From: Bdellovibrionales bacterium
GTDB lineage: Bacteria > Bdellovibrionota > Bdellovibrionia > Bdellovibrionales > JAKFYE01
DNA length: 64,000 nucleotides
Assembly: GCA_021731045.1 (NCBI GenBank)
Contig: JAKFYE010000013.1
Span: forward strand, 1-64,000
Direction: 5' to 3'
The notes under the pieces are model-generated. The model made no database searches and was not told the origin of the DNA. It saw nothing but the letters and a program-made list of their open reading frames with translations. Below, one piece after another: positions 1 through 1,276 of the stretch (position 1 is its first letter; every line of letters begins with the position of its first letter). The position numbers and the translations under genes are program-made.

Positions 1-709
1 GGTCTTTACAGCGATCTCCGTTTTTATAAGTAAATGTGCACTGTCCACGATCTCTTAAAGTTACCTGTCGTGCGACAGATAAGTTCTTTCGGTTTTTTAG
101 CTTTTCAGATTTTTGTACTGGATCTTGCTTTTCAAGATAAATATCCAGCAGCACTTCAAGAGTTTCTTCAAGGCTTACAGACTTTCGCTTTTTTTGCGAT
201 TCAAGATCTTGCGCTCGTTTAAGTTTCTTACTTAATAATTCTGAAATACCAAGTTGTAGATTAAGTCTGTCTTCGCTTACAAACTTCATTCGTTCAGGGA
301 CAGCTTCTTTAGGACAAGCCTTAGCGACATAGTGTTCAAGTTTGCGCTGCGGCAGCTCAACTGCCATCTGCAGCCATTCTTTTTGATTACTTGAGGTGAG
401 CACAGGAGTAATCTTTCGAGCCTTTGACACGCTTAGAGCTCCAGATTCAATAATAGATTTAAGCTCCGGAACTTCTTTAGCCTTACGAGCAACGGTAATA
501 AAGTTAAACGCAACACTTTCTGAAAGCTTTAAGATATTAATGGCGTATTCATGAAGATTCTTACATTCAAAAAGATAATAAACCCGGTACTCATCTACTT
601 GTTGTAAAATATCAAGAAGCTCAGCTTCCACACGTTTATAACGCTCAACAACTCCAAGGGCTCTTTGATGAATCTCAAGCTGCATATTTTTTTCGAAAGA
701 ATCTGTCAT
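1..709 (-). CDS. HNH endonuclease-like protein (3' part missing)
   Basis: The gene starts at an ATG whose complement is 707-709, behind a good ribosome site (AAGGAGAG), and runs off the left edge after 236 codons. The N-terminal ~200 residues are helical and charged. The last visible residues, RDRGQCTFTYKNGDRC, are the start of an HNH nuclease domain of the type found in many copies in Bdellovibrio genomes. The catalytic HNH residues lie outside the window, so activity cannot be judged. Just before that motif the gene contains a near-palindrome (63-80) that encodes SVARQV. The target and cellular role are unknown. It could be a homing-type or DNA-processing nuclease. Confidence 0.8.
   Translation of the reverse strand, partial: MTDSFEKNMQLEIHQRALGVVERYKRVEAELLDILQQVDEYRVYYLFECKNLHEYAINILKLSESVAFNFITVARKAKEVPELKSIIESGALSVSKARKITPVLTSSNQKEWLQMAVELPQRKLEHYVAKACPKEAVPERMKFVSEDRLNLQLGISELLSKKLKRAQDLESQKKRKSVSLEETLEVLLDIYLEKQDPVQKSEKLKNRKNLSVARQVTLRDRGQCTFTYKNGDRCKD
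63..80. repeat. Near-palindrome inside the HNH gene
   Basis: The 18 bases read ACCTGTCGTGCGACAGAT. They differ at two positions from the perfect palindrome at 976-993. The site lies in frame in the HNH gene, immediately upstream of the start of the nuclease domain. Confidence 0.6.
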
Positions 710-975
710 GAAAAATCTCTCCTTACAAATCAGAAAGAAACCATAACATAGGTTTTAAAATATCAAGTTGATGAACATAAAACCCTCTTAACAACTCAAT
801 TCAAAACACATCTAAAACTTTATTACGCCATGGAGATTAAAAGATAAAAGCAAAACCACCAAAACAAAAGCCAGATGTATTTAAACTTTGCAATCAAACC
901 AATAAAAACAAAAAAACACGTCAAGTATTTTCTAGGTTGTGCCTCAAAAAAATTAAATTATTATTCTAAAAAATC

Positions 976-993
976 ACCTGTCGCGCGACAGGT
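976..993. repeat. 18-bp perfect palindrome
   Basis: The sequence ACCTGTCGCGCGACAGGT is a perfect inverted repeat with no loop. It matches the near-palindrome in the neighbouring HNH gene at 16 of 18 positions. It could be a protein binding site or a nuclease recognition site. Confidence 0.65.
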
Positions 994-1124
994 AAATAAT
1001 CTTTCCAACACCGAACTTCAAATCTTCACCCATCCTCAAATCTCAACCTCTCCCTCTCTAACTCCTCGTCACCAAAAACACGAAACATCTGACCCAAAAA
1101 ATATTTTACTTCATAACCCAGTGG

Positions 1125-1160
1125 GCGGCTGTTGGGGCTCCAGCGCCCCCTTGAAGCCGC
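1125..1160. other. Nested G+C-rich hairpin
   Basis: The outer stem GCGGCT (1125-1130) pairs with AGCCGC (1155-1160). The inner stem GGGGC (1134-1138) pairs with GCCCC (1145-1149) around a six-base loop. There is no adjacent T-tract, so it is not a classical terminator on either strand. Confidence 0.5.
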
Positions 1161-1215
1161 TTTGATCAACCTAATTAAAATATTTTTCCCCGCCTAAAAG
1201 TCGGCCCAAACGGAA

Positions 1216-1248
1216 CAGGCTCAAGGGCCCATTTAGGGTCCACGCCTG
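1216..1248. other. Hairpin downstream of kdsD
   Basis: CAGGC (1216-1220) pairs with GCCTG (1244-1248). Inside, GGGCCC (1225-1230) pairs with GGGTCC (1236-1241) with one mismatch, around the loop ATTTA. It lies about 30 bases past the kdsD stop codon and may protect or end the operon transcript. Confidence 0.4.
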
Positions 1249-1276
1249 CCCGCCAATCTTCCACTTAAAATTTACT

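Follow-up and report, generated by a model that had tools for sequence, protein, structure and literature searches.

A perfect 18-bp palindrome lies beside an HNH nuclease gene at the edge of a Bdellovibrionales contig, and a near copy of it lies within the gene, directly ahead of the part that encodes the nuclease. What is this palindrome to the gene, and to the protein that the gene encodes? The window, by which we mean the whole 64,000-nucleotide stretch that was analysed, begins at base 1 of contig C14 (85 kb), and the gene (2-709, minus strand; 236 codons in the window) is therefore incomplete. It is 92% identical to its paralog P0001 over residues 1-236, and complete paralogs have 273 amino acids. 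In the numbering of P0001, residues 23-134 (308-643, minus strand) would form a ParB/Noc-like helix-turn-helix, to judge from a structure model, and residues 140-195 (125-292, minus strand), which have weak structural matches, a beta-alpha-alpha, ribbon-helix-helix-like segment and possible dimerisation module. The coding part of the HNH domain is cut off after its start (2-61, minus strand). This piece is too short for a Pfam HNH match in the window gene; in the paralogs the domain is whole (PF01844, E 2.2e-6 in P0001).

The free palindrome, ACCTGTCGCGCGACAGGT, is located at 976-993, 266 bases ahead of the start codon, and encodes PVARQV in the frame 875-1165. The in-gene copy (63-80, minus strand) matches it at 16 of 18 positions and encodes SVARQV at the junction with the HNH domain. 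The pair described by the sequence-only reading, with VARQV in frame at both places, was thus recovered in full, and in dinucleotide shuffles matches with ≤3 mismatches averaged 0.02 per window. Joined to the free palindrome is a non-coding block (994-1276, plus strand) whose start resembles type A, the flank that is most frequent in the arrays of the genome. Two GC-rich segments (1136-1158 and 1222-1246), each single in the window, recur in other array copies of the genome and are perhaps a further repeat family joined to palindromes. As to a restriction-modification pair, the frames within the first 4000 bases of the window, which include a sugar-phosphate-isomerase-like and a CTP-synthase-like one (named by eye), show no methyltransferase.

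We counted the palindrome in the window's own genome (G000; 2.58 Mb in 47 contigs, 83.5% complete). There are 65 sites at ≤3 mismatches vs. none for the reversed control pattern, and 51 vs. none for the inner 16-mer at ≤1 mismatch. A recount gave the same 65 sites: 42 are ≤1.5 kb from an HNH gene of the palindrome-linked family, 22 of the others are ≤1.5 kb from a contig end and one degenerate site is near neither. The proposed enrichment at HNH genes thus holds genome-wide, with counts far from those of an arbitrary 18-bp word. At 19 contig ends there is a site no more than 1.5 kb away, a crowding that is expected if palindrome repeats break the assembly. The genome_contigs collection, described as comprising 257 billion bases and possibly lacking the window's own genome, contains the exact 18-mer in nine stretches: five in one metagenome-assembled genome (MAG), one in another and three in unrelated species. 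Over the whole collection, 3.7 were calculated to occur by chance. We attribute the three copies in Acidipila, Stutzerimonas and Actinopolymorpha to chance, as each falls inside a long open frame of an unrelated gene (by eye) and their number equals the chance level. One of the chance copies (L041:2646-2663) is within a hydrolase-like frame that adjoins a DUF222-like frame (by eye).

The arrangement around the gene is regular in G000. Among the matches listed, ten gene copies or large fragments are 90-100% identical to the P0001 protein, and all ten contain the in-gene palindrome. In the six copies with both sites in the stretch (L006, L016, L018, L019, L020 and L021), the upstream palindrome is always 898-913 bp from the in-gene one. 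A further palindrome follows shortly 3' of the stop codon in all eight copies that are complete there (L016, L017, L018, L020, L021, L023, L031 and L032), and additional ones occur at about 91, 120 and 350 bp. The start of contig C41 (L208:1-760) consists of tandem 191-bp units with one palindrome copy each.

At E up to 1e-10, we detected the gene family in 49 of the 140 genomes of the order, the window's genome included, which is the sole member of its taxonomic family in the set. Of 143 genomes of the class, only G000 (19 times) and G028 (6 times) contain the 16-bp core of the window palindrome without a mismatch, so we looked for genome-specific words in the others. G119 has 12 paralogs. 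Eleven of them combine an in-gene palindrome, whose centre falls 67-76 bp ahead of the codon for the first HNH cysteine, with an upstream copy that matches or nearly matches it; in the twelfth (L122), the in-gene site is imperfect, with 6 of 8 pairs. Three palindrome types track three paralog groups: CTCTGTTTAAACAGAG (2 genes), CTCTGCGCGCGCAGAG (4 genes, one with a half-site hybrid as its in-gene site) and TTCTGTGCGCACAGAA (5 genes). The four type II genes repeat their word in another reading frame, which indicates a constraint that acts on the DNA. All eight positions pair, the centre included, in 10 of the 12 G119 in-gene sites. An RNA loop needs no central pairs, and we rejected an RNA hairpin on these grounds; in folding of the window RNA, the free copy has a z of -3.9 and the in-gene copy of -1.5.

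Other genomes differ in their words and in where they keep them. The G137 word, CAGTTCTTAAGAACTG, has nine sites at ≤2 mismatches (control, 2), seven of which surround three HNH genes outside the coding part; no site is listed for a fourth family match, on contig C29. The in-gene position is empty in all three genes, the best site before the HNH part having 5 of 8 pairs, and an in-gene site is therefore not universal. Among the matches listed, G137 and some other genomes have further full-length ones at only 25-30% identity, which may represent a separate branch. G106 has nine sites, of which five are within HNH genes ahead of the HNH part, one is upstream of such a gene and one is beside an HNH remnant. 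Two of the five in-gene sites are perfectly symmetrical (CAATTCTTAAGAATTG and CAGGTCTTAAGACCTG) and differ from one another on both sides; the other three miss one pair. Linker palindromes with 7 of 8 pairs are present in all three genes of G085, and single in-gene sites in G117 (L159) and G118 (L161). The encoded peptides vary (SVARQV, LCLNR, LCARR, FCAHR, QFLRI) and the DNA is palindromic throughout. The look at relatives that had been advised thus returned the same gene family with different, gene-matched palindromes (G119, G137 and G106).

We assessed these patterns with a strict definition, a perfect palindrome of at least 16 bp whose core recurs within the locus. Such palindromes are present at 23 of 49 HNH loci from 12 genomes, and five genomes have them with different words (8/10 loci in G000, 10/12 in G119, 3/3 in G137, 1/4 in G097, 1/7 in G106 and 0/13 in seven other genomes). 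The 26 loci without one include 5/5 in G001, 3/3 in G085 and 6/7 in G106. None was found in 73 control stretches (27 from the window and 46 from other loci). As these derive mostly from Actinopolymorpha and the window, we added 66 stretches from nine of the HNH-locus genomes, again with none. A palindrome with 8 of 8 pairs lies ≤200 bp before the first HNH cysteine in 12 of 49 genes (52 minus three without HNH cysteines) vs. 10 of 336 windows elsewhere in genes, a background that includes the second in-gene sites of G119. The shuffles, the reversed control and the locus controls together rule out a chance match. At the level of sequence, the sites are associated with the gene, their types track lineages and paralog groups, and symmetry is kept in the DNA in different words. 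That lineages have different words suggests that the word is the binding site of the protein itself and a recombination seam of its copies.

The structure model of P0001, built from 45 aligned family members, has a mean pLDDT of 93.9. Its residues 23-134 match the DNA-binding domain of ParB/Noc/Spo0J in the top 12 rows of VIA-align (Z 9.4 to 7.0 over 96-103 residues at 2.3-3.9 Å); the best row is ParB 7bnr_B (Z 9.4, 101 residues, 2.7 Å), and KorB is lower (Z 6.3). Because helical models can frequently reach Z values below about 13, support from sequence matters here. Pfam HTH_ParB matches 2 of 45 members (best E 4.1e-4), hhalign against four resident ParBs gives E 4.8e-4 at a probability of 32%, and a Foldseek search with the model returned no match under E 0.001. 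The ParB-like domain is thus supported by structure prediction as a likeness of fold, to which the sequence adds modest support. We did not find the N-terminal ParB/Srx CTPase domain in P0001, which has 22 residues before the helix-turn-helix match, within a helix at 2-40, and the ParB/Srx family is absent from the Pfam families listed for the 45 members. Residues 140-195 are modelled as beta-alpha-alpha, and the fragment with its neighbours is predicted at pLDDT 90.7. The top nine VIA rows of this fragment are weak (Z 3.7-4.5) and comprise chains of NikR, MatP, SvtR, ParD2 and Reg576, which we take to be mostly ribbon-helix-helix proteins. Foldseek gave no match for the fragment under E 3, and the model weakly supports a ribbon-helix-helix-like segment. 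Residues 210-273 are the HNH domain: PF01844 was detected in 45/45 aligned members at E up to 0.05, and C224, C234, H244, N258 and C263 are invariant among them. As to defence systems, PADLOC, run on four proteins, gave matches over the HNH end only (best E 1.1e-6), and PHROGs likewise gave mainly HNH families. With respect to a phage or plasmid origin, tblastn of P0001 at E 1e-5 returned no match in either of two collections.

The helix-turn-helix also contains candidate specificity residues. In the hhalign alignment, residues 95-98 of P0001 stand opposite the G-H-A-R/K motif of a resident ParB (G-H-A-K), a motif that we take to be positions 201-204 of Caulobacter ParB. Residues 95-98 and 100 are among the 29 of 214 alignment columns that separate the G119 groups (9 of 11 genes in the alignment). 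This is suggestive of a link to word specificity and falls short of proof, because the three G119 groups are related by descent. According to PMC7383237, the ParB DNA-binding domain binds palindromic parS with two-fold symmetry and has four specificity residues, position 201 among them; the paper also describes palindromic ParB/Noc sites (parS/NBS) of about 16 bp with words that differ by protein, which our family resembles in its sites and in its predicted ParB-type fold. Unlike ParB/Noc, the family has an HNH domain in place of the N-terminal CTPase domain and occurs in many copies, and the ParB of the genome is a separate gene (L192). The canonical parS word has no exact match in any of 209 loci.

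We consider it probable that the palindrome is the cognate site of the adjacent ParB-HTH/HNH protein, both an operator and, through nicking or cutting, a seam for recombination. The protein would combine a ParB/Noc-type helix-turn-helix, a ribbon-helix-helix-like segment and a C-terminal HNH nuclease, and would most likely sit on the palindrome as a dimer with one half-site per subunit. At the site upstream of the gene, the bound protein would limit its own expression. The second site, which in several lineages marks where the DNA-binding part of the gene meets the nuclease-coding part, could block completion of the nuclease or be cut for exchange of the nuclease part. Nicking or cutting at palindromes would start recombination between copies, and the palindromes would thereby turn into seams where parts of genes and non-coding blocks can be exchanged, duplicated or lost. 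Binding, dimerisation, cleavage and autoregulation by the protein are what we infer from the arrangement of sites, genes and predicted domains.

The rearrangements themselves are directly visible in G000, where the palindromes are junctions of rearranged blocks. We sorted the flanks of 60 sites into types, and these occur in several pairings: type A is joined to seven partners and types B and E to five each, some of these resting on single cases. According to our reading of the flank comparison, L016 and L018 contain the same blocks in a different order. The gene in L019 leads up to the palindrome and a non-coding block follows on the far side, so the HNH part was lost there. Ends of pairwise homology blocks fall in or within 6 bp of a palindrome in 169 of 1175 cases vs. 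69.1 expected, a count in which the pairs are not independent. Divergence also changes along the copies: between L016 and L017 it is 8.4% and 3.0% in two parts on the left and 9.3% in the HNH part, and between L018 and L023 it is 2.7% immediately to the left of the palindrome and 15.7% on its right side. Of the two proposals made from the window, a recognition or recombination site accords with the HNH association, the gene-matched words, the ParB-like domain and these block junctions. The other, that a gene fragment has spread, is not the principal explanation, as most free G000 copies lie in several different non-coding contexts unlike the coding flank.

Could the palindrome be an operator and nothing more? 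The protein would then repress itself at its promoter, the in-gene site would be a roadblock before the nuclease, the HNH domain would act elsewhere and the shuffling would be a by-product of repeats. The upstream and in-gene sites of 11 of the 12 G119 genes are what such an arrangement would look like. There is also a precedent in PMC2988022, where the nuclease I-TevI represses its own promoter at an operator that resembles its homing site; it shares with our family a recognition-like site ahead of the nuclease gene, and differs in that the family's sites are also inside and behind the gene and its nuclease is HNH rather than GIY-YIG. Nor did a host gene, intron or intein come up for the family in analyses that were aimed at other questions. 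A regular 26-bp array upstream of the HNH gene L121 in G119 is also in favor. We nevertheless think this reading unlikely, because it leaves aside the G028 sites without an HNH gene, the G000 and G137 sites downstream of the gene and block junctions that fall on palindromes above expectation. The L121 array (L209:957-1160, contig C7) has eight palindromes and resembles an operator or a centromere-like array.

Sites away from the gene bear on another alternative. RAYT proteins are thought to spread REP palindromes, and the palindromes here might be small mobile elements of a similar, selfish kind, spread by the HNH protein with the gene merely one of their hosts. The dispersed copies fit. One of the 15 G028 sites is in the HNH gene of that genome. 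For the other 14, the stretches read show no HNH match; nine of these are outside any open frame of at least 120 amino acids and five inside one. The congener G029 has one site, as does its control. In G119, 83 sites at ≤1 mismatch of a degenerate word stand against 14 for the control, and the places listed include 15 distinct exact words, 11 of them hybrids that combine two half-sites. In L040 of G028, homology to G029 ends just ahead of one palindrome and returns just past another. This is no proof of insertion, because the edges of homology are also gene ends, and neither an insertion unit nor an empty site is defined. Placement argues against mobile spread as well, with 7 of 9 G137 sites and 42 of 65 G000 sites at HNH genes and 22 more G000 sites at contig ends. 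What the family shares with REP and RAYT (TnpA-REP) is that short palindromes occur both at the gene for a nuclease-like protein and elsewhere; the family differs in having HNH and ParB-HTH domains instead of a Y1/HuH enzyme, and a palindrome inside the coding frame. No Y1 transposase model was among the Pfam and NCBIfam matches of eight members. On balance we give selfish spread a small chance. In L042 of G028 (2880-2990), a direct repeat, cagcccctgcgaagc, occurs on both sides of the palindrome, and also near the G028 site in L043.

A third explanation dispenses with the HNH protein. Slippage or homologous exchange between near-identical copies could be the work of the host, with the palindrome inherited along with the gene. 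Consistent with this, the G000 genes are mosaic throughout their length, also away from the palindrome, contig C41 has its tandem 191-bp units, and common descent of gene and flanks accounts for part of the type matching. What makes the explanation very improbable is that homologous genes of five genomes have different words, and that symmetry is kept in these different words and in the same word in two frames, where a passive repeat should lose it. That a linker peptide (VARQV, ELCxxRV) is maintained for its role in the protein, and is encoded by codons that are palindromic by accident, can practically be dismissed: every in-gene site does fit the open frame of its gene unbroken, but the peptide varies while the DNA stays palindromic, and copies are also in non-coding DNA.

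Returning to the palindrome as the protein's own operator and recombination seam, we tentatively suggest, at somewhat less than even odds, an undescribed class of self-targeting elements: ParB-HTH/HNH enzymes that have their own palindrome at the seam between reader and nuclease, where binding or cutting would limit, swap or remove the nuclease, and whose palindromes would spread through the genome and diversify with the reader domain. If so, parallel pairs of site and reader would exist within one genome. As far as the literature was searched, a ParB-type helix-turn-helix, an HNH nuclease and cognate palindromes in and around the gene are a new combination of known parts; the search, with most subscription journals outside its reach, returned no description of an HNH protein paired with a palindrome. 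To our knowledge, many-copy bacterial HNH genes are mostly without a known target. For this family the likely target can be read from the sequence within and next to the genes, in words that differ by paralog group, which makes target, specificity residues and function directly testable. The family would also provide a natural set of matched readers and sites for the evolution of DNA-binding specificity, and is a possible source of repeat-driven genome rearrangement.

We compared the family to other HNH proteins. The ParB part of GmrSD-type restriction enzymes is presumably the ParB/Srx nucleotide-binding fold and not a helix-turn-helix. What these enzymes have in common with the family is given in PMC12839542 as a 'ParB and HNH domain architecture'. 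P0001 reaches 26 bits with NCBIfam guided_IscB, over the HNH part only, and the best of eight members 41.5 bits, below the cut-off of 175. The DUF222/13E12 HNH proteins of Actinobacteria are likewise many-copy, with another N-terminal domain. Two of 45 family members match DUF222 weakly (best 0.0012), and P0001 has no PF02720 match at E up to 0.05. Among 30 DUF222 loci of Actinopolymorpha, one has a perfect palindrome of at least 16 bp that recurs, so we do not extend the pattern to Actinobacteria. In this single positive locus (L191), a perfect 20-22-bp palindrome with the core TTCTTCCGCGGAAGAA occurs twice, at 2379 and 3307.
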